NCBI GenBank assembly: GCA_023250955.1
Contig: JAHEZQ010000013.1
Span: forward strand, 1-64,000
From: Melioribacter sp.
GTDB taxonomy: Bacteria; Bacteroidota; Ignavibacteria; Ignavibacteriales; Melioribacteraceae
Direction: 5' to 3'
Length of the DNA: 64,000 bases
Part shown: piece after piece, positions 4,471 through 62,936 of the stretch
Layout of the letters: each line of letters begins with the position of its first letter
How positions within the stretch are numbered: the stretch's first letter is position 1
Position numbers and translations under genes: made by a program
Notes under the pieces: generated by a model
What the model was told of the DNA's origin: nothing
The model's input: the letters and a program-made list of their open reading frames with translations, nothing else
Database searches by the model: none

Positions 4471-4502
4471 AATAGCTAATCTGATAATTATGACTGATCA
4501 AA
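4471..4502 (-). promoter_or_regulatory. Candidate metH promoter (imperfect TTTG-N20-TAnnTTTG)
   Basis: On the minus strand TTTG (4502-4499) is followed after 20 bases by TAGCTATT (4478-4471), which ends 13 bases before the metH ATG. It matches the Bacteroidota-type consensus at the -33 element and at four of the six fixed positions of the -7 element. The spacing equals that of the three exact matches in this window, but the weaker -7 box makes it tentative. Confidence 0.3.
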
Positions 4503-9806: not shown

Positions 9807-10595
9807 TTAAATTCTTTTTAGGAATCCTTCAATCAAATCATTAACACATCCCGGATTTTCAAGCGGTGACATATGACCAGCGCGTGGAATTACAGCAAAC
9901 TCAGCTCTAGGAATTTTTTCTGACATAGCACGCATAACTAATGGTGGTGTTAATTTATCGAACGAGCCGCAAAGAACAAGAGTAGGAATATTTATTTTGT
10001 GTAAGAAAGAAGTTGTATCTGTCCTGCTCATAATTGCAATGAGAGCGCCTTTAACTCCGAGTTGATCATGTTTATGCGCTTTAAATAATGTTGTTAAAAA
10101 CATTTTTTCCTGTTCTTTTGGAGTTTCTTCTGCAAAACAATTTGTTACAAATTGATCAACAAATTTTATTAATCCTTCTATATTAATTTGATTTATGCTT
10201 GCTGCGCGTTTCAGCTTTGCGGTATCGTCATCGGCTTCGGATTTTGTATCGCATAGTATCAAACCTTTGAATATTTCCATACTTCGTTCTACTGAACGCA
10301 GAGCAATATATCCGCCCATTGAGAGTCCACAAAGAATTGGTCTTTTCAATTTGAGTTCGCTTATAATTGAAAAAAGATCGTTAACATAAGCTTCCATTGT
10401 ATATTGACCGTCACCGACATAACTCTCTCCGAGTCCGCGTACATCATAAGCAACACAGAAATATTTTTCTTTTAGAATATTAATTTGATTTTCCCACATT
10501 GAGCTATCGTATGGAAACCCGTGAATAAAAATAATTGGTTGATTGGTCTGATCACCGAATGTATTAACTGAGAGACTATTAATTGACAATTTCAT
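9807..10595 (-). CDS. Alpha/beta hydrolase
   Basis: 262-residue alpha/beta-hydrolase-fold enzyme without a signal peptide, presumably cytoplasmic. The oxyanion-hole HGFPYD motif is at 25-30, the nucleophile elbow GLSMGG places the serine at residue 92, the acid is Asp213 in GSFDKLTPP, and the catalytic histidine is His241 in RAGHMSPLENP, so the full triad is intact. Length and motif spacing are those of 3-oxoadipate enol-lactonase/haloperoxidase-like esterases. No pathway genes lie nearby, so the substrate is unknown. It converges with the small membrane protein upstream on the plus strand, their stops being 16 bases apart. Confidence 0.85.
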   Translation of the reverse strand: MKLSINSLSVNTFGDQTNQPIIFIHGFPYDSSMWENQINILKEKYFCVAYDVRGLGESYVGDGQYTMEAYVNDLFSIISELKLKRPILCGLSMGGYIALRSVERSMEIFKGLILCDTKSEADDDTAKLKRAASINQINIEGLIKFVDQFVTNCFAEETPKEQEKMFLTTLFKAHKHDQLGVKGALIAIMSRTDTTSFLHKINIPTLVLCGSFDKLTPPLVMRAMSEKIPRAEFAVIPRAGHMSPLENPGCVNDLIEGFLKRI

Positions 10596-10764
10596 ATTCG
10601 CCTTTTTTTATATAACTGAAGAAAATTATTAGTAAGTTTCTTATGGTTTCGGTGTCAAATTTAATCTCTTATTAGTAAGTATCAAAAAATATTAATACTT
10701 ATTTAAACCTTTGCGAAAGGCGGTATGTCAAAATTCCGAAACGAACAAACAAAAGGAACGTAAT

Positions 10765-24511: not shown

Positions 24512-25465
24512 ATGTCAATAAAAATTAATAAACTAAACAGTTTTTTATTACATAGTTCTTTTTTTATTCTTCTATGGTTTGCGTTTAGTATTTCTGAAAG
24601 TAGTTTTGCGCAAGACGTACCTCCTAACACAAAGAAAAAAGGAGATTTCGTATCGCAGGATGCGGTGGAACTAAATAAAATAAAACAACTTAAAGTAAAG
24701 ACACGAATAAAATATGCTGCCAACTATGATTTAAGCGGAAAAATGGTTCCTAAGAAAATTGCAATGAAAGAAGTTTTTAATAAAAAAGGTTTATTGACTC
24801 TGAGAGAAGAATATAATGGAATGGGAAATGTCGTGGCCAAATATTTATTTACTTATGATTCCAAAAATAACCCCATCAAAGCAGAATCAATCGAATCTGA
24901 TGGAAGAACAGCGCTACAAGTATCAAAATATGATTCTCGCGGAAATGAGATTGAAAGAAGTATAAATGAAAAAAGGAGAAATAAAACTGGATCGAAAATG
25001 CTTTTTAAGTATGATAAAGATGACAATTTAATAGAAACAAAAGATTTTAATAATAATAAACTTTCAGATATACTTACTACCACTTATAGCGTCGGTAAAA
25101 GAATCGGTTCAATTGTAAAAGACGAGAAAGGAAATACTCTATTAACAATTACACCTGAATATGATTCTAATGGTAAGTTGATAAAAGAAACTCGAAAAAA
25201 TTCTTCAGTCAATGTTATATACACATATAAATATGATTCTAAAGGAAATCTAATTGAAATGGTTGATGATGAGACAAAACGATATTATAACTATGATGAG
25301 AAAGGTAATGTAACTGAACACAAAATGTATTTACTTGACGGTAGACGTCAATTAAGATTAGTGTTTAAATATGGATCTAATGGTTTACAGAATGAAGTAT
25401 TAAGGTTTGATAACAACGAGAAACCGGTGTTAAACACAAGTTTTGTTTATGAGTACTATAAATAA
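24512..25465 (+). CDS. Exported YD-type repeat protein
   Basis: 317-residue protein with a long signal peptide (about 1-34, ending SSFAQ). The mature part has about seven copies of a short beta repeat of the form Y-D-x-x-G-N-x-x-E (YDSKNNPIKAE, YDSRGNEIERS, YDKDDNLIETK, YDSNGKLIKET, YDSKGNLIEMV, YDEKGNVTEHK), spaced by roughly 20-30 residues. The repeat resembles the YD/RHS repeat in miniature, without the large RHS shell, toxin domain or core motif, so I do not call it an RHS toxin. Probably an elongated beta-sheet protein of the periplasm or surface. GGAG lies before the ATG; a terminator follows. Confidence 0.65.
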   Translation: MSIKINKLNSFLLHSSFFILLWFAFSISESSFAQDVPPNTKKKGDFVSQDAVELNKIKQLKVKTRIKYAANYDLSGKMVPKKIAMKEVFNKKGLLTLREEYNGMGNVVAKYLFTYDSKNNPIKAESIESDGRTALQVSKYDSRGNEIERSINEKRRNKTGSKMLFKYDKDDNLIETKDFNNNKLSDILTTTYSVGKRIGSIVKDEKGNTLLTITPEYDSNGKLIKETRKNSSVNVIYTYKYDSKGNLIEMVDDETKRYYNYDEKGNVTEHKMYLLDGRRQLRLVFKYGSNGLQNEVLRFDNNEKPVLNTSFVYEYYK

Positions 25466-26881: not shown

Positions 26882-26913
26882 TTTGACATTCGGACATTCC
26901 TTAGATATATTTG
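26882..26913 (+). promoter_or_regulatory. Promoter of tRNA-fMet
   Basis: TTTG (26882-26885), 20 bases, then TATATTTG (26906-26913): an exact match to the Bacteroidota vegetative form TTTG-N20-TAnnTTTG. The same bases also give a near-perfect classical sigma-70 promoter, TTGACA (26883-26888), 17 bases, TATATT (26906-26911). The mature tRNA starts 42 bases downstream. Confidence 0.8.
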
Positions 26914-26955: not shown

Positions 26956-27028
<73 letters not shown>

Positions 27029-27033
27029 CAAAG

Positions 27034-34719: not shown

Positions 34720-34751
34720 TTTGCTATTTCAAGCTATTCTTCCTACCTTTG
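34720..34751 (+). promoter_or_regulatory. Promoter of the rimP-nusA-infB operon
   Basis: TTTG (34720-34723), 20 bases, then TACCTTTG (34744-34751), exact for TTTG-N20-TAnnTTTG. It lies just past the SIMPL stop codon and 44 bases before rimP, the first gene of the operon. Confidence 0.75.
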
Positions 34752-34795: not shown

Positions 34796-35242
34796 ATGAA
34801 AAAACAGCAAATTTTCAACAGATTCGAAGAAATTGTTAAAGCCCAAGGCTTTGTTCTTGTTGATTTAGTCATGCGCGGAGATAACCACCTTCGTATTATC
34901 GAAGTATATATAGATAACGAAAAAGGAATCACTACAGTTGACTGTGCTAATGCAAGCCGGATATTGAACGAGGTAATCGAATCTGAAAAACTGATTGATT
35001 CTAATTACCGACTGGATGTTTCTTCACCGGGTGTTGAAAGACCGCTTAAGTTTTTAGTTCAGTATAGTAAGCATATTAACAGGAAATTTGAAATTGAATT
35101 TAAAGATATTGAAGAAATTAAAAAGTTGAATGCAAAATTAATCCGTATAGAAGCTGAAGATCTTTTCTTTACTGAAAAAAACTCAGAGTATAAAATAAAT
35201 TTTAATAACATTATAAAAGCAAAAGTATTAATTAGTTTTTGA
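34796..35242 (+). CDS. rimP: Ribosome maturation factor RimP
   Basis: 148 residues from ATG 34796; the frame extends upstream through the promoter, so the earlier start at 34700 cannot be right. RimP helps assemble the 30S subunit. The N-terminal alpha-beta domain contains GFVLVDLVMRGDNHLRIIEVYID (landmark only) and the conserved DCANASRILNE...YRLDVSSPGVERPLK segment that marks the family. The C-terminal SH3-like barrel (about 82-148) ends the protein. First gene of the rimP-nusA-infB operon; the nusA ATG follows 17 bases after the stop. Confidence 0.92.
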   Translation: MKKQQIFNRFEEIVKAQGFVLVDLVMRGDNHLRIIEVYIDNEKGITTVDCANASRILNEVIESEKLIDSNYRLDVSSPGVERPLKFLVQYSKHINRKFEIEFKDIEEIKKLNAKLIRIEAEDLFFTEKNSEYKINFNNIIKAKVLISF

Positions 35243-35258
35243 TCACACAGGAGTAAAA

Positions 35259-36506
35259 ATGAACACCGAGATAGTAGAATCCTTTGCTCAGATGGTCCGA
35301 GAGAAAAGTCTCGACAAAGATGTTCTTGCAGGAATCATTGAAGAAATTTTTGGAATTATGGTTAAGAAAAAATATGGACTGGAAGCTAAGTATGATGTTG
35401 TTGTGAATATGGATAAAGGCGATATAGAAATATTTCTTGAAAGAACAATTGTTGACACAGTTAATGATCCCGGAACCGAAATAAGCATTAATGAAGTTAA
35501 TGAAAAGGGAAATGCAGATGATCTTGAAGTTGGAGAAGACTTTGTTGAAAAGATCGAATTAAAAGAATTTGGAAGAAGATTAATAAATCTTGCACGCCAA
35601 AGTTTAAACCAAAAAATCCGAGAAATCGAAAAAGAATTGGTTTATAATGAATACAGCGAAATGCTCGGCGAGATTGTTGTCGGAGATATTTATCAGGTTA
35701 GAAGAAACGATGTTCTTATTAATCACAATAAGAATGAACTAATCCTACCGCGTAACGAACAAATTCCAAGAGAGAAATACAGAAAAGGTGATACTATTCG
35801 TGCGGTCATTAAAGATGTTAGAAAAACTCCGAACGGACCGCTTATTGTAATATCACGAGGTGATAATCTTTTCTTAAGAAGATTATTTGAAATCGAAATC
35901 CCGGAAATCTATGACGGAGTAATTGAGATAAAAGGAATTGCACGCGAACCGGGTGAAAGAGCAAAAGTTGCAGTTGAATCAAATGATGCCCGAATAGATG
36001 CGGTTGGAGCTTGCGTCGGAATGAAAGGTGTTCGTATTCATGCAATCGTACGTGAGTTGAACAATGAAAATATTGATGTAATTAATTATACGGATGACTC
36101 AATTGTATTTATTCAAAGATGTCTTGCACCGGCTAAACTAAAGCAAATCGAAATTGATGAAGAAGCTAAAAAATGTATTGTTACAGCGGATAGCGATCAA
36201 GTATCATTAATTGTTGGCCGTAACGGTGTTAACATCCGGCTTGCAATTAAACTCAGCGGTTATGAGATCGAAGTAATCAGACAAGAAAAACCATTTGAAG
36301 AATATGATGAAGATATTGAACTTGTTGAATTAAGAGAAGAATTGGGATCGGAAGTTGTTGATCTCTTGATTAATAACAGATTAGATACTGCACTTGAAGT
36401 CCTTGGTGCCGGTATTGAAAAGTTAAAAGAGATTGAAGGCGTTGACGAAGAAAAGGCTAAACAAATAATTGAAATTCTCGAAAATCAATTTGAAGAAGAA
36501 GAATAA
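35259..36506 (+). CDS. nusA: Transcription termination/antitermination factor NusA
   Basis: 415 residues. An N-terminal RNA-polymerase-binding domain (about 1-130) is followed by an S1 domain (about 135-200, GEIVVGDIYQVRRND). The first KH domain (about 230-300) has GACVGMKGVRIHAIVREL and the second (about 305-365) has IVGRNGVNIRLAIKLSG. A short acidic C-terminal helix-hairpin-helix-like tail (about 370-415) replaces the longer AR repeats of enterobacteria. GGAG lies before the ATG. It modulates pausing, termination and rRNA antitermination. Second gene of the operon. Confidence 0.96.
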   Translation: MNTEIVESFAQMVREKSLDKDVLAGIIEEIFGIMVKKKYGLEAKYDVVVNMDKGDIEIFLERTIVDTVNDPGTEISINEVNEKGNADDLEVGEDFVEKIELKEFGRRLINLARQSLNQKIREIEKELVYNEYSEMLGEIVVGDIYQVRRNDVLINHNKNELILPRNEQIPREKYRKGDTIRAVIKDVRKTPNGPLIVISRGDNLFLRRLFEIEIPEIYDGVIEIKGIAREPGERAKVAVESNDARIDAVGACVGMKGVRIHAIVRELNNENIDVINYTDDSIVFIQRCLAPAKLKQIEIDEEAKKCIVTADSDQVSLIVGRNGVNIRLAIKLSGYEIEVIRQEKPFEEYDEDIELVELREELGSEVVDLLINNRLDTALEVLGAGIEKLKEIEGVDEEKAKQIIEILENQFEEEE

Positions 36507-36535
36507 ACAATTACACAAATACAGGTAATTACAAA

Positions 36536-39160
36536 ATGCCGGATACAGTAAAAGACAAAAAATTACGACTATACAAATTTGCTACTGAGTATAATCTTGC
36601 TACGGAAACTTTAGTTGAATTTTTACAGAAGAAAGGCTACGAAGTAAAATCTCATATGTCTCTGTTGACCGATGAAATGGTGGCGGATATAAAGTCATTT
36701 TTCAAAAAGGATATTGAGAAAGCGGAAAAACATTATAAGAAGATTTCGGAATTTCAGAAAAAGAGAAGTGATCAGGATGAAGCAGAGGCAGCTTTAGAAA
36801 CATCAAAGAAAGTTGCAGAACAAAAACATACCGAAGAAAAGGAAAGCGATCTATTCAAAGAGAAAGAAACTGTTGCAGATCAAGTAGCAACTGTACAAAC
36901 TACTGAAATAGTAGAAACAGTTACAGAAGCTGAACCGGTTGATGAAAAAGTTGAAGAAGTTTTAGAAGAATCAAAATCTTATAAAACAGAAACAGAAATT
37001 GCAATTGAAGGAAGAAGAAAAGGATTAACAATTGTTGGTAAGATGGATCTGAAGGACCGGAGAGAAAAACCGGAAACAGTTCCCTCTACTCCTCAAGTTA
37101 AACCATTAGAAGTTGCCGCTGAAGATAAAGATGCAGATAAAAAAGGCAAAAAGAAAAAGAAAGTTCTAAAGTCGAAGAAAAAAGCTGCCGGTCCCGGTGA
37201 AGGTCCCGAAGAAGTTATAGTTGCTAAGAAGAAAAGAAAAATAAAACGTCTGGAAATTGATAAACGTGAAGTTGAAGATGCAATTAAACGGACTTTACTA
37301 AGCATGGATGAATCTGCAGTTGGAGATAGAGCTTCAATTCGAAAGAGAAAAAGAAAAGAGAAACAGGATATTCAAGATCAGATCCTTCAGCAGAAAGAAT
37401 TAGACAAAACAAAAATTTCAGTAACCGAATACATTGCTGTTAACGAACTTGCAAATCTTATGGGCGTTTCAGTAAGTGATGTAATTTCAAAATGTATTTC
37501 ACTTGGATTGATGGTTTCTATAAATCAACGGCTTGATGTTGAAACAATTACACTTGTTGCTGATGAATTCGGATTTGAAATAGAACTGCAAGCTGCATAT
37601 CAAGCTGATATAGATGCGGACATTCCTGATACAATTGAATCGCTTAAACCACGCCCGCCTGTCGTTACAATTATGGGTCACGTTGATCACGGTAAAACAT
37701 CTTTACTTGATTACATTCGCAGAGCTAATGTTGTTGCAGGTGAAGCCGGCGGAATAACTCAGCACATCGGCGCTTACAAAGTAATTACTGAAGACGGTAA
37801 ACAAATTTCATTTCTCGATACTCCAGGTCACGAAGCATTCACAGCTATGCGTGCACGCGGTGCTAGAGTTACAGATATTGTAGTTTTAGTTGTTGCAGCA
37901 GATGATGCCGTAATGCCTCAAACTGTTGAAGCAATCAATCACGCTCAAGCGGCCGGCGTTCCAATAATAATTGCTATCAATAAAATTGATAAACCGAATT
38001 CTAACATAGAAAAAATCAAACAACAACTTGCTGATAGAAATGTTTTAGTTGAAGAATGGGGCGGAAAATATCAGTGTGTTGAAATCTCGGCCAAATCCGG
38101 AAAGAATGTTGACGTACTTTTAGAAAAAATTGCTCTTGAAGCGGAATTGCTTGAGTTAAAAGCGAACCCGGAAAGATTGGGAAGAGGTACAATCATTGAA
38201 TCTCAGCTTGATAAAGGAAAAGGTGTAACGGCTACGGTTCTTGTTCAAAAAGGTACTGTAAGGATTGGAGATCCGTTCATTGCTGGAGTAGTACACGGAC
38301 GTGTGCGTGCAATGTTTGATGAACGTAGCAAAAAAGTTTTTGAAGCCGGACCATCCACACCGGTACTTGTGCTTGGTTTTGAATCTGCACCTCAAGCAGG
38401 CGATAATTTTACTGTTGCAGAATCTGAAAGAGAAGCGCGAGAAATTAGTTTGAAACGTATGCAGTTGAAACGTGAACAAGATCATCGTCAAGTTCATCAT
38501 ATTACTCTTGATGAAATTGCAAGTCAAATTAGTTATGGCGGATTTAAAGAACTTCCTGTAATAGTTAAAGGTGATGTGGACGGTTCAATTGAAGCATTAT
38601 CGGATTCATTAATGAAATTATCAAATCAAGAAGTTTCGGTTCGTGTTATTCACAAAGGTGTTGGTGCAATTTCAGAAGGTGATGTGCTTTTAGCTGCAGC
38701 ATCGGGAGCTATTATAGTAGGCTTCCACGTTCGTCCAAATACAAATGCAAGAAAACTTGCTGAAGTTGAAAAAGTTGATATCCGTCTCTACAATGTTATT
38801 TATGATGCAATCAACGAAGTAAAATCTGCTCTAGAAGGATTACTCTCGCCTGTTGTATCCGAAGAAGTTGTTGCTACTCTCGAAGTCCGGGATATTTTCA
38901 AAGTTCCTAAAGCAGGAACAGTCGCTGGTTGTTCAGTTCAAGACGGTAAAATTACCAGAGGTAATAAAGTACGGTTGTTCAGAGAAGGAATTGCTGTTTA
39001 CGAAGGTGAGATCAGTTCATTAAGAAGATTCAAAGATGATGTCCGTGAAGTTGAAAAAGGTTACGAATGCGGTCTCAGCATTGCAAACTTTAATGATATT
39101 AAAGTAGGCGATGTTGTTGAAGCTTATAAAATGATCGAAACAAAAAAGAAATTAGAGTAA
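36536..39160 (+). CDS. infB: Translation initiation factor IF-2
   Basis: 874-residue GTPase that brings initiator tRNA to the 30S subunit. There is an IF2-N domain at the start (about 8-55), then a long charged linker (about 60-275) with a lysine block (KGKKKKK, near 201-207), and a second IF2-N domain at about 285-335. The G domain has GHVDHGKT (381-388), DTPGH (about 428-432) and NKID (about 482-485). Domains II-IV follow to the end. The stop codon overlaps the rbfA start (TAATG), so the two are translationally coupled. Confidence 0.97.
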   Translation: MPDTVKDKKLRLYKFATEYNLATETLVEFLQKKGYEVKSHMSLLTDEMVADIKSFFKKDIEKAEKHYKKISEFQKKRSDQDEAEAALETSKKVAEQKHTEEKESDLFKEKETVADQVATVQTTEIVETVTEAEPVDEKVEEVLEESKSYKTETEIAIEGRRKGLTIVGKMDLKDRREKPETVPSTPQVKPLEVAAEDKDADKKGKKKKKVLKSKKKAAGPGEGPEEVIVAKKKRKIKRLEIDKREVEDAIKRTLLSMDESAVGDRASIRKRKRKEKQDIQDQILQQKELDKTKISVTEYIAVNELANLMGVSVSDVISKCISLGLMVSINQRLDVETITLVADEFGFEIELQAAYQADIDADIPDTIESLKPRPPVVTIMGHVDHGKTSLLDYIRRANVVAGEAGGITQHIGAYKVITEDGKQISFLDTPGHEAFTAMRARGARVTDIVVLVVAADDAVMPQTVEAINHAQAAGVPIIIAINKIDKPNSNIEKIKQQLADRNVLVEEWGGKYQCVEISAKSGKNVDVLLEKIALEAELLELKANPERLGRGTIIESQLDKGKGVTATVLVQKGTVRIGDPFIAGVVHGRVRAMFDERSKKVFEAGPSTPVLVLGFESAPQAGDNFTVAESEREAREISLKRMQLKREQDHRQVHHITLDEIASQISYGGFKELPVIVKGDVDGSIEALSDSLMKLSNQEVSVRVIHKGVGAISEGDVLLAAASGAIIVGFHVRPNTNARKLAEVEKVDIRLYNVIYDAINEVKSALEGLLSPVVSEEVVATLEVRDIFKVPKAGTVAGCSVQDGKITRGNKVRLFREGIAVYEGEISSLRRFKDDVREVEKGYECGLSIANFNDIKVGDVVEAYKMIETKKKLE

Positions 39161-46443: not shown

Positions 46444-46475
46444 TTTGTTAATTTTCAGACAACAAATTATTTATT
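46444..46475 (+). promoter_or_regulatory. Candidate promoter before the transaldolase gene
   Basis: TTTG (46444-46447), 20 bases, then TATTTATT (46468-46475), ending 19 bases before the ATG. The -33 element and spacing are exact; the -7 box differs at two fixed positions, as at metH. No hairpin separates it from rng. Confidence 0.35.
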
Positions 46476-56413: not shown

Positions 56414-56998
56414 TTGAATAAGCTCCTGACAGAATTTTCAGATGAAGAATTAATTAAAGAGTATCAGGATAATAACACTCCTGAAGCGTATGATATTTTA
56501 GTTAAACGTTACAAGGACCCTTTAATGAATTTTGTTTATAGGTTTGTTGGTGATCGCGATATTTGTACAGATGTTGTTCAAGATACAATGATAAAGTTTT
56601 ATTTGAATAAAGATTCTTACCGTTCATTTGCAAAATTTTCAACATGGATTTACACAATTGCAGGAAATCTTGCCAAGAATGAATTGAAACGGAGACGAAG
56701 AAGAATTATTTTTTCAATTAATAACAGCGATGACGAAAGATCGCCTCAGATTGAAGACAAAATGTTTTTAGCTCCGGATAAAGCAGCAGATGGTGAAATA
56801 CGCAATGAGATTATTCAAAAAGCTCTATTGAAAGTTAAACCTGTTTATCGTGAGGTTGTAATCTTAAGAGATATACAAGATCTTTCTTACGAAGAAATTT
56901 CTGAAATTACTGGACTTGCGATAGGTACTGTTAAATCGAGAATCAATCGCGGAAGAGCACAATTACAAAAACTTTTGAAACATATCTACAGAGAGTAG
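56414..56998 (+). CDS. RNA polymerase sigma factor, sigma-70 (ECF-like) family
   Basis: 194 residues. Region 2 is at about 20-90, with DILVKRYKDPLMNFVYRFVGD and DVVQDTMIKFY...FSTWIYTIAGNLAKNELKRRRRR (landmarks). Region 4 is at about 130-190, with YREVVILRDIQDLSYEEISEITGLAIGTVKSRINRGR (landmark). No region 1.2 or 3, so an ECF-type factor. The start is TTG 56414; there is no ribosome-binding site close to it. The following gene, three bases after the stop, encodes a single-pass membrane protein that is the likely anti-sigma factor. Confidence 0.9.
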   Translation: MNKLLTEFSDEELIKEYQDNNTPEAYDILVKRYKDPLMNFVYRFVGDRDICTDVVQDTMIKFYLNKDSYRSFAKFSTWIYTIAGNLAKNELKRRRRRIIFSINNSDDERSPQIEDKMFLAPDKAADGEIRNEIIQKALLKVKPVYREVVILRDIQDLSYEEISEITGLAIGTVKSRINRGRAQLQKLLKHIYRE

Positions 56999-57001
56999 CT
57001 T

Positions 57002-57667
57002 ATGAAAAAAATCTACAACGACGAAGAAAACAAATTTTCAAAAATGTTAAAAGATCTCAAGGACTTGCCCAATATTAAAGCACCCGATAATTTTGAGTAC
57101 AATCTATTAACACGTATACAAAATAAAAATTTCGGTACCGTTGAAAAAAGAGAACCTCAATTTAATTGGATAAAATTTCTCGCTCCTTCTGCTGTTGCTG
57201 TTTCGGTAATTATTCTCTTTTTTATTTTTCTTCCATCATCGCAGGAAAATAATAATCAATTATTACAGCAGACCAAACTGCAGGATAACCAATCTGCAGT
57301 TAATAATTCTCCATCTGCTAAGAATGAATTGAATAATCAGCAATCAGTTCCTTCGAACACTAGAATACAGCCCAATTCATCCAGTCTTTTAGGATCGAAT
57401 AATCAAACGGTTAAACCAAGTACACGGTCTCCGTTATATGATTCTAGATCAATCAAACTTGATGATTACATTTCCGGAGCTAATAAAAATCGAAGTAATA
57501 CGAACAGAGGCAATATTGTAAACAACGGTGAAGAATCTTCTCAATATGATGGCTTTGTCGTTTCAGAAAAACCTGATAAAAAAACACTTGAAAGATACCG
57601 TGCAGTTGTAGACTCAATCAAAAAAGCGCAATTGAAAGCCGATTCATTAAAAAAGGTTCAAAAATAA
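57002..57667 (+). CDS. Probable anti-sigma factor, single-pass membrane protein
   Basis: 221 residues with no recognised family. A cytoplasmic N-terminus of about 55 residues (LKDLKDLPNIKAPDNFEYNLLTRIQ, landmark) resembles the short helical start of ECF anti-sigma factors, which typically read 'aP..f...ll..i'. One transmembrane helix (about 59-79) follows. The rest (about 80-221) is a low-complexity Asn/Gln/Ser-rich periplasmic segment ending in a Lys-rich helix (KKAQLKADSLKKVQK). No zinc-binding HxxxCxxC is present. Position three bases after the sigma factor is the main reason for the call. Confidence 0.6.
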   Translation: MKKIYNDEENKFSKMLKDLKDLPNIKAPDNFEYNLLTRIQNKNFGTVEKREPQFNWIKFLAPSAVAVSVIILFFIFLPSSQENNNQLLQQTKLQDNQSAVNNSPSAKNELNNQQSVPSNTRIQPNSSSLLGSNNQTVKPSTRSPLYDSRSIKLDDYISGANKNRSNTNRGNIVNNGEESSQYDGFVVSEKPDKKTLERYRAVVDSIKKAQLKADSLKKVQK

Positions 57668-57688: not shown

Positions 57689-57720
57689 TTTGTTTTTTAG
57701 CCCCAGCATAGCTAAATTTG
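57689..57720 (+). promoter_or_regulatory. Promoter of rpmE
   Basis: TTTG (57689-57692), 20 bases, then TAAATTTG (57713-57720): exact TTTG-N20-TAnnTTTG. It ends 30 bases before the rpmE ATG, which has AAGGAAG upstream. Confidence 0.75.
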
Positions 57721-57750: not shown

Positions 57751-57957
57751 ATGAAAAAAGGTATTCATCCAAATTATAAGAGATGCGAAGTTACTTGTGT
57801 TTGCGGAAATACATTTGTAACACGTTCAACTGTAAGCAGTATTAAGATTGAGCTTTGTTCGAATTGTCATCCTTTCTTTACCGGAAAACAAAAAATTGTA
57901 GATTCAACCGGACGAGTAGAAAGATTCAAGAAAAAATACGGTTTGAAAGAAGCATAA
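57751..57957 (+). CDS. rpmE: 50S ribosomal protein L31, zinc-binding type
   Basis: 68 residues. The zinc ribbon is complete: CVC (Cys16, Cys18) and CSNCHPF, so this is the zinc-containing form rather than the Cys-less paralogue used in zinc shortage. Starts [14 protein letters not shown] and ends [10 protein letters not shown] as the family does. It has its own promoter and terminator, so it is transcribed apart from its neighbours. Confidence 0.97.
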
Positions 57958-58073: not shown

Positions 58074-59441
58074 ATGGAACAGAATACAGAATCATTTGAA
58101 CTCAATCTTTATCAAGGCGTTAGAGGACATGCTGTAAAAATCCTAAATCGCATTGATAGAACAGATGCATATCTTGATAAACTCCTCGATATAGAAATAA
58201 AAAATTCCAACCTTTCAGGTCTCGATAAATCATTACTTTTCGAAATTGTTCATGGTGTGACCCGATGGCTTGGTAGAATTGATTGGATACTTAATGGATT
58301 TTATAAAGGTCAATTCTCCAAATGTATTCCAAACGTTAAAAACGCAATGCGTGTGGCTTTATATCAAATTTTATTTCTTGACAAGGTACCTGACTATGCC
58401 GCGGTTAACGAAGCAGTAGATTTTGTTAAAAAACTTCAAGGTCAAAAGCCTGCCGATTTAACTAATGCCGTATTAAGAAATATCATTCGAAGCAAAGATA
58501 TAATTCGTTATCCTGATCCTAATGAAGATATTATTACATACTTCAGTGCTTATTATTCTCATCCTAGTTGGATGGTTAAAAGATGGATCAACAGATATGG
58601 AAAAGATGAAACTGAGAAACTGTTAATTTCGAATAACAATAAACCTTTATTAACTATTCGTGTTAATGGATTAGTTTCTAATTATGAAGAAATGAATTCT
58701 TTACTTAACAGTGTTGAACTGAAATTTACAAATGGGAAATTTTTACCTGAATTCATCCGGTTAAGTGCACTTTCAAATATTACCGATTGGGAATATTTTC
58801 ATAAAGGTTACTTTACAGTTCAAGATGAAAGCACCGGACTGCCGATTAAATTATTAGATGTAAAACCGGGAATGAGAGTTTTGGATTTATGTGCCGCTCC
58901 AGGTGGTAAAACAGCATTCATAGCCGATGTAATGCAAAACTCCGGAGAGATTATTGCTTTAGACAGATTTGAAAGCAGACTTAAAATATTACAGAAGAAT
59001 TTGAGTAGACTACAAGTGACAAATGTAAAAACTATTACAATTGATGCAAATGAATATGAAGATGAGCAGGGATTTGACAGAGTATTAGTGGATGCACCTT
59101 GTTCCGGATTAGGAACATTAACTAAAAAACCCGATCTAAAGTGGAAAAGAGACTTGGGGGATATCAGAAAAATTGTTAATATTCAATACGAGTTACTGAA
59201 AAAAGGCGCATCATTATTAAGAAAAAGCGGTTTCATAGTGTATAGCACATGTACTATTGAACCCGAAGAGAATTTTGAAATCATAAAAAAATTCTTGATG
59301 GATTATCCTAACTTCAAATTGGTTGATCCAGGTGATGCGCTATCAACTGAACTAATAGATGAAAATGGCTGCGTTAGAACTTTACCTCATTTACACGGAC
59401 TTGATGGTTCATTTGCGGCAAAATTAGAAAAGAGTTATTAA
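58074..59441 (+). CDS. rsmB: 16S rRNA (cytosine(967)-C(5))-methyltransferase
   Basis: 455 residues from ATG 58074 (a TTG three codons earlier is the alternative). An N-terminal NusB-like RNA-binding domain (about 10-145, GVTRWLGRIDWILNG, ALYQILFLDKVPDYAAVNEAV) precedes the Rossmann methyltransferase domain. That domain has the SAM loop CAAPGGKT (about 272-279), the DAPCSG motif (about 339-344) and the catalytic cysteine in YSTCTIEPEEN (about 388-398). Standard RsmB architecture. The rodZ-like gene follows after 16 bases and is probably co-transcribed. Confidence 0.94.
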   Translation: MEQNTESFELNLYQGVRGHAVKILNRIDRTDAYLDKLLDIEIKNSNLSGLDKSLLFEIVHGVTRWLGRIDWILNGFYKGQFSKCIPNVKNAMRVALYQILFLDKVPDYAAVNEAVDFVKKLQGQKPADLTNAVLRNIIRSKDIIRYPDPNEDIITYFSAYYSHPSWMVKRWINRYGKDETEKLLISNNNKPLLTIRVNGLVSNYEEMNSLLNSVELKFTNGKFLPEFIRLSALSNITDWEYFHKGYFTVQDESTGLPIKLLDVKPGMRVLDLCAAPGGKTAFIADVMQNSGEIIALDRFESRLKILQKNLSRLQVTNVKTITIDANEYEDEQGFDRVLVDAPCSGLGTLTKKPDLKWKRDLGDIRKIVNIQYELLKKGASLLRKSGFIVYSTCTIEPEENFEIIKKFLMDYPNFKLVDPGDALSTELIDENGCVRTLPHLHGLDGSFAAKLEKSY

Positions 59442-62904: not shown

Positions 62905-62936
62905 GTTGGGATTATTTAACCGAATTTGTAGATTAG
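62905..62936 (+). promoter_or_regulatory. Candidate promoter of the STAS gene
   Basis: GTTG (62905-62908), 20 bases, then TAGATTAG (62929-62936), 32 bases before the ATG. Three of four and five of six fixed positions match TTTG-N20-TAnnTTTG. Confidence 0.35.

Follow-up and report, generated by a model that had tools for sequence, protein, structure and literature searches.

The vegetative promoters of Bacteroidota, known from Bacteroides and Flavobacterium, combine a TTTG element at -33 with a TAnnTTTG box at -7 and belong to the sigma factor sigma-ABfr. Bayley 2000 and Vingadassalom 2005 are said to be the founding papers on this promoter and its sigma factor. A box of the TAnnTTTG type is reported at 81% of the primary transcription starts in B. 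thetaiotaomicron (PMC7366714). In Flavobacterium johnsoniae the box is placed at -12 to -5, with probable starts 4-5 bases after it (PMC6847099), and the F. psychrophilum box is given at the same place (PMC9723704). A literature search that covered few subscription papers found no paper on Ignavibacteria promoters. Here we consider a window, meaning the whole 64,000-nucleotide stretch of Melioribacter sp. DNA that was analysed, in which three sites are very likely to be vegetative promoters of the Bacteroidota kind that would be read by the short RpoD-like primary sigma factor of the phylum, as judged by sequence comparison. This comparative evidence extends the promoter grammar of Bacteroidia to the little-studied Ignavibacteria, and promoter prediction and reporter design become possible for these mostly uncultured lineages.

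Three bipartite sites and their family orthologues

The window holds exactly three matches to TTTG-N20-TAnnTTTG, all on the forward strand and all at the positions and spacing given in the initial annotation, and the units downstream are those it had named. The site at 57689-57720 consists of TTTG (57689-57692), N20 and TAAATTTG (57713-57720), and precedes rpmE (57751-57957, forward strand), which encodes a ribosomal protein L31 of 68 amino acids (PF01197, E 2e-33). The site at 34720-34751 (TTTG-N20-TACCTTTG) precedes a forward-strand unit at 34796-39160 made up of rimP (34796-35242), nusA (35259-36506) and infB (36536-39160), whose products are supported by Pfam-type profiles for RimP (below the curated cut-offs), NusA and IF-2. 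The site at 26882-26913, which can also be read as TTGACA (26883-26888), N17 and TATATTTG (26906-26913), precedes a tRNA-Met at 26956-27029 (forward strand); "fMet" is the earlier label for this tRNA, the ARAGORN evidence being its CAT anticodon. Directly upstream of the rpmE promoter lie an alternative sigma factor gene (56414-56998; Sigma70_r2, r4_2) and, between the two, an open reading frame at 57002-57667 without a Pfam match.

The number of matches is by itself borderline, since three N20 matches compare with 0.89 expected and 5 of 100 shuffles reach three. When the spacing is relaxed to N19-21 there are six matches against 2.57 expected, a count reached by 6 of 100 shuffles. Their placement is more telling: although called genes take up 92% of the window, four of the six lie outside them, upstream of a gene or tRNA and on the correct strand (P = 5e-4 for at least four of six). 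Three of these four had been named before, and the fourth, with an N19 spacer, lies at 10656-10686 on the reverse strand, about 60 bases before an alpha/beta-hydrolase gene (9807-10595). The remaining two (24578-24608 and 59020-59050) fall within genes. When the window is scanned with a matrix built from their orthologues, the three sites come out on top, a result that is therefore partly circular. The initial annotation had also seen weaker versions before the metH, transaldolase, GWxTD and STAS genes, and these are not supported. Pfam confirms the identities of metH, the transaldolase and the STAS gene, and the sites before them (4471-4502, reverse; 46444-46475, forward; 62905-62936, forward) are seen at two mismatches only. 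At that level the window has 203 matches against 240 expected from shuffles, so that they are no evidence on their own. No GWxTD domain was found among the 29 window proteins that were profile-scanned.

We compared the upstream regions of the three units in the host's family, taking 30 loci per gene from 36 (rpmE), 37 (rimP) and 34 (CAT tRNA) matches in 38 genomes. Since the loci share ancestry, and the host and its close relatives are among them, they are not independent samples. TTG-N19-21-TAnnTTTG was found before rpmE in 13 of 30 loci, before rimP in 12 and before the CAT tRNA in 20, leaving 17, 18 and 10 loci without the exact motif. On the antisense strand of the same loci the counts were 0, 0 and 1, and random pieces of these loci contained the motif in 29 of 1800 cases. 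The spacer was N20 in 41 of the 45 orthologous bipartite sites, including all 12 at rimP. The distance from the end of the box to the gene was 29-33 bases at rpmE and 43-55 at rimP; at the tRNA it was 12-119 bases, the promoter shifting in position with its motif kept. Several family members (for example loci L260-L263) have a diverged L31 with 56-71% identity, encoded in frames of 87-92 codons as against the 68-residue host form.

The sites had been described as a Bacteroidota form used instead of the classical -35/-10. This is right for the second half of the -10 element, where T-8, T-6 and, less strictly, G-5 are distinct, but not for the geometry: TTTG-N20-TA is equivalent to T followed by TTG(ACA)-N17-TA, and the spacing is therefore classical. 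No TATAAT box is present at any of the three sites. Before the family CAT tRNA, TTGAC-N18-TA picks out 25 sites spread over 24 of the 30 loci, one of them an obvious chance match; they read TTGAC-N18-TATATTT and have T-10 in 23, A-9 in 23, T-8 in 24, T-7 in 24, T-6 in 25 and G-5 in 17. The same search found no site upstream of rpmE and a single, un-promoter-like one upstream of rimP. Sites picked by TTG-N20-TA have T-8, T-7 and T-6 in 23 of 28 each and G-5 in 11 of 28 at rpmE, and T-8 in 31, T-7 in 30, T-6 in 25 and G-5 in 14 of 33 at rimP. The predicted tRNA promoters couple a classical -35 element, at the classical distance, with the Bacteroidota box.

Location of the motif in the host genome and across the phylum

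In a host sample consisting of the window and loci L081-L100 (464 kb, 14% of the genome), the density of TAnnTTTG was 2.37/kb between divergent genes, 0.63/kb within genes and 0.41/kb (2 sites) between convergent genes. Between tandem genes there were 24 sense boxes (1.27/kb) against 12 antisense (0.64/kb); TATAAT showed no sense bias in the sample (27 sense, 34 antisense). The 17.3 kb upstream of divergent genes contained 7 copies of the bipartite TTG-N19-21-TAnnTTTG; the 18.8 kb separating tandem genes contained 4 in sense and one in antisense, and 423 kb inside genes had 31 on both strands. Ten full sites precede genes of varied kinds. The TTG before the box peaks at N20, with 7 of 56 boxes and a further 3 at N19, over a background of 0.025 per position. 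Expectation maximisation (EM) started from random seeds on host upstream regions gave ATTAttTtTG, equal to the -7 box, as its best-scoring motif, with a Shine-Dalgarno-like motif second. A free bipartite EM on the host gave no decisive answer, returning a number of weak upstream boxes at gaps of 10-17, and the spacing was taken instead from the TTG peak and the orthologues. A scan for ribosomal-protein genes by signature motifs turned up 5 genes and proved of no use.

The proposed check by genome-wide density gave a divided answer: there is no excess when location is disregarded, and an excess upstream of genes once it is counted. Over the whole host genome the exact N19-21 pattern was found 100 times against 110 for the reversed pattern, and the bipartite pattern 299 times against 288. 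Because the bare density ignores location it is an unfair test, and it was set aside as a measure. Of the 100 exact matches, five have a tRNA gene on the same strand no more than 120 bases downstream, against 0.079 expected for the 43 host tRNA genes (P 2e-8); on the opposite strand there are none. One exact match, G000:C17:40823-40853 (forward strand), ends just 4 bases before a tRNA gene, which as a promoter would give it almost no leader.

The InfB of the host is closest, at 80% identity in both cases, to those of an Ignavibacteriae MAG and of a MAG labelled Bacteroidetes bacterium, and other Ignavibacteria and Bacteroidetes MAGs come next. Outlying lineages were sampled at 120-260 kb per set. 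In the positive control, 21 loci assigned to Bacteroidia (19 of them by title), there are 62 sense and 11 antisense boxes; the host signal of 24 to 12 is weaker. In these loci the TTG before the box peaks at both N19 and N20 (13 and 13 of 98 boxes). Twelve loci assigned to Ignavibacteria, 7 from their titles and 5 through InfB similarity alone, have 9 sense boxes and 1 antisense. Sense and antisense counts were 9 and 2 in G184, 3 and 0 in G043 and 6 and 2 in G059, and only 7 and 5 in the relative G124. EM seeded with TATAAT converged on gTAttTTTG in two other Ignavibacteria families. On G184 and G124 together, GC-rich motifs outscored the box, which was not the top motif; in families f23 and f33 exact boxes are all but absent. 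In Chlorobia there were 6 sense and 3 antisense boxes in G052 and G063, and 4 and 2 in G005, with no TTG at N19-20 before them. EM there gave TATnTT, below the top motif, and one of two Chlorobia tRNA units carries TATCTTTG.

The primary sigma factor and the alternative readings

A profile search found two nearly full-length RpoD-like genes in the host, at G000:C27:17756-18607 and G000:C50:25906-26763 (loci L101 and L102), with 269.5 and 254.4 bits, both below the cut-off of 354. They are 80% identical, and their open frames of 293 and 287 codons leave no room for region 1.1. A third, weak match of 32.7 bits (L103, G000:C59:128616-128951, reverse strand) lies inside an 822-codon frame. Among 13 sampled genomes of the host's family, 11 have two RpoD-like matches, one has one and one has three, and a relative of the host protein is present in 118 of 118 phylum genomes searched. 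We aligned two canonical SigA chains taken from the PDB with 69 phylum sequences, among them paralogues and both host proteins. In host numbering, S100I, T101S and T104V distinguish 69 of 69 phylum sequences from SigA, as do T112L, H127N and E130G in 68 each and R113Q in 66, while the helix that reads the -35 element retains its TRER/RQI core. The short frames and the region 2.3-3.0 typical of the phylum bear out, by sequence comparison, the claim that the host shares the divergent primary sigma factor of Bacteroidota. The claim that this factor helps to place the lineage has to be given up: the region is equal in all sampled lineages, three Chlorobia sequences being identical to the host in this stretch, and a type that is phylum-wide cannot place the host within the phylum.

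We infer which sigma factor reads these sites and where transcription starts. Region 4.2 would read TTG at -35, and the whole TTGACA at the tRNA, with the 20-base gap corresponding to a classical 17-base spacer counted from TTG. Regions 2.3-2.4 would melt the DNA at T-12 A-11. Where TATAAT has its second half, the polymerase would favour T-8 T-7 T-6 G-5, and transcription is predicted to begin some 5 to 8 bases beyond the G of the box.

The simplest alternative is that a pattern of low information has matched AT-rich DNA by chance. The borderline count in the window and the lack of a genome-wide excess both fit this, and counting alone is weak evidence. Location and conservation decide the matter: position and spacing are kept across many family genomes with almost nothing in antisense, and the adjacency to tRNA genes exceeds its expectation of 0.079 with five cases. 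Chance is thus an exceedingly improbable explanation, and the three sites are very probably real promoters. They could instead be ordinary sigma-70 promoters, TTGACA-N17-TATATT being a good classical promoter at the tRNA and its TTTG end incidental. The 25 fMet sites carry TTGAC at classical spacing and keep G-5 in only 17, which speaks for this reading, yet 24 have T-8 and all 25 have T-6, whereas TATAAT has A at -8. TTGAC is moreover missing at rpmE and found only once, in un-promoter-like form, at rimP; TATAAT is not biased to the sense strand in this genome, and the host sigma region departs from canonical SigA. We consider this reading highly unlikely.

It is also conceivable that the sites form a special class for translation genes, read by one RpoD paralogue or by another regulator. 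All three precede translation units, the tRNA and rpmE promoters share a C that is unusual at protein genes, and most sampled members of the host family have two RpoD-like genes. The ten full sites before varied genes speak against such a restriction, as do the close similarity of the two host paralogues in region 2.4 (by alignment) and the fact that the box is the general promoter in Bacteroidia, to judge from its share of B. thetaiotaomicron primary starts (PMC7366714). A dedicated class is a very unlikely explanation, and vegetative promoters of the Bacteroidota kind are the reading we adopt.

Start-site bases, translation signals and known systems

The shared C is the fifth base after the G of the box, close to the expected start (57725 at rpmE and 26918 at the tRNA, both forward strand). 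Among the bipartite sites of the family it is present at fMet in 20 of 20 and at rpmE in 11 of 13. Where sites were picked without looking at the box, it is present in 23 of 25 fMet sites (by TTGAC-N18-TA alone) and 18 of 28 rpmE sites. In eleven lineage groups, tRNA units have TAnnTTTG within 120 bases in 18 of 41 cases (antisense 2 of 41), and with the window left out base 5 is C in 13 of 17 of these tRNA promoters. Protein-gene boxes have it in 57 of 305 cases (Fisher 1e-6), or 19 of 68 when TTG is present (Fisher 5e-4). A purine occupies the position in 6% of the tRNA set, 0% of the fMet and rpmE sets and 51% of protein genes. The tRNA promoters have a pyrimidine pair at bases 5-6, C and then mostly C or T, with purines from base 7. 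The unit of rimP breaks the rule, with C at base 5 in 3 of 12 sites (25%) and a C coming later; in Bacteroidia, the boxes before protein genes carry the C at base 1 (53% of 101). Nor is the base a general feature of the host genome, where C is seen after 58 of the 299 bipartite matches and the reversed pattern gives 54; of the five exact matches adjoining host tRNAs it is present in three (contigs C2, C29 and C58) and not in those on C17 and C60.

By the Flavobacterium register, base 5 after the box would be +1. Transcription in B. thetaiotaomicron begins at A in 45% of cases and at G in 41% (PMC7366714); since these are mostly purines, the genes considered here either start with C or have a start shifted to the purines at bases 7-8. 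A tentative possibility, drawn by analogy, is that tRNA and some growth-linked Bacteroidota promoters form a class of their own with a displaced start, a short-lived open complex and an output set by nucleotides or ppGpp. The C-led pyrimidine pair would occupy the normal start and push initiation about 2 bases downstream. The longer stretch from box to start would make the open complex short-lived, and nucleotide levels or ppGpp would set the production of tRNA and ribosomes by means of a sequence unlike that of E. coli rRNA promoters. The latter, such as rrnB P1, are described as having a G+C-rich discriminator; initiation at rrnB P1 is placed nine bases downstream of the -10 element, with the discriminator and start destabilising the open complex (PMC7822876).

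Shine-Dalgarno-like words were scored at -17 to -4 against a control position, with start codons from a simple gene caller. They were found in 32% of 380 host genes (control 5%), in 32% in both family relatives and in 27%, 23% and 19% in other Ignavibacteria sets; across the host sample, G184, G124, G043 and G059 the range was 19-32% of genes against 2-11% in controls. The values were 19% of 84 genes in G005 (control 1%), 15% in Chlorobiaceae (control 10%) and 6% of 312 genes in Bacteroidia (control 4%). An earlier report gives no detectable Shine-Dalgarno sequence in Bacteroidetes and Chlorobi (PMC3155529). In the host, promoter and sigma factor are changed while Shine-Dalgarno-like sites are still used, so that the two changes are separable; this suggests that the two oddities of Bacteroidota, the promoter and sigma change and the loss of Shine-Dalgarno sites, arose separately.

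Compared with the Bacteroidota vegetative system, the host has the same box, a spacing (N20) included in the N19-20 peak of the Bacteroidia loci, and a short sigma factor that lacks room for region 1.1 and has the same region 2.3-3.0. It differs from Bacteroidia in its spacing mode of N20, in keeping the whole TTGACA at tRNA promoters and in retaining Shine-Dalgarno-like sites, and from a Flavobacterium species in which six box positions are nearly invariant, in the less strict G-5 of its family's tRNA sites. With canonical sigma-70 promoters (TTGACA-N17-TATAAT) it shares TTG at -35, the 17-base spacer, T-12 A-11 and T-7, and departs from them in T-8, T-6 and G-5 and in having TTGACA at tRNA promoters only. 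The parallel with E. coli rrnB P1 is put forward as a hypothesis: the host tRNA promoters have a C-containing stretch just before or at the predicted start and purines later, as in rrnB P1, whereas their core boxes and sigma factor differ. What the comparison suggests is a signature at the start site that marks tRNA promoters.
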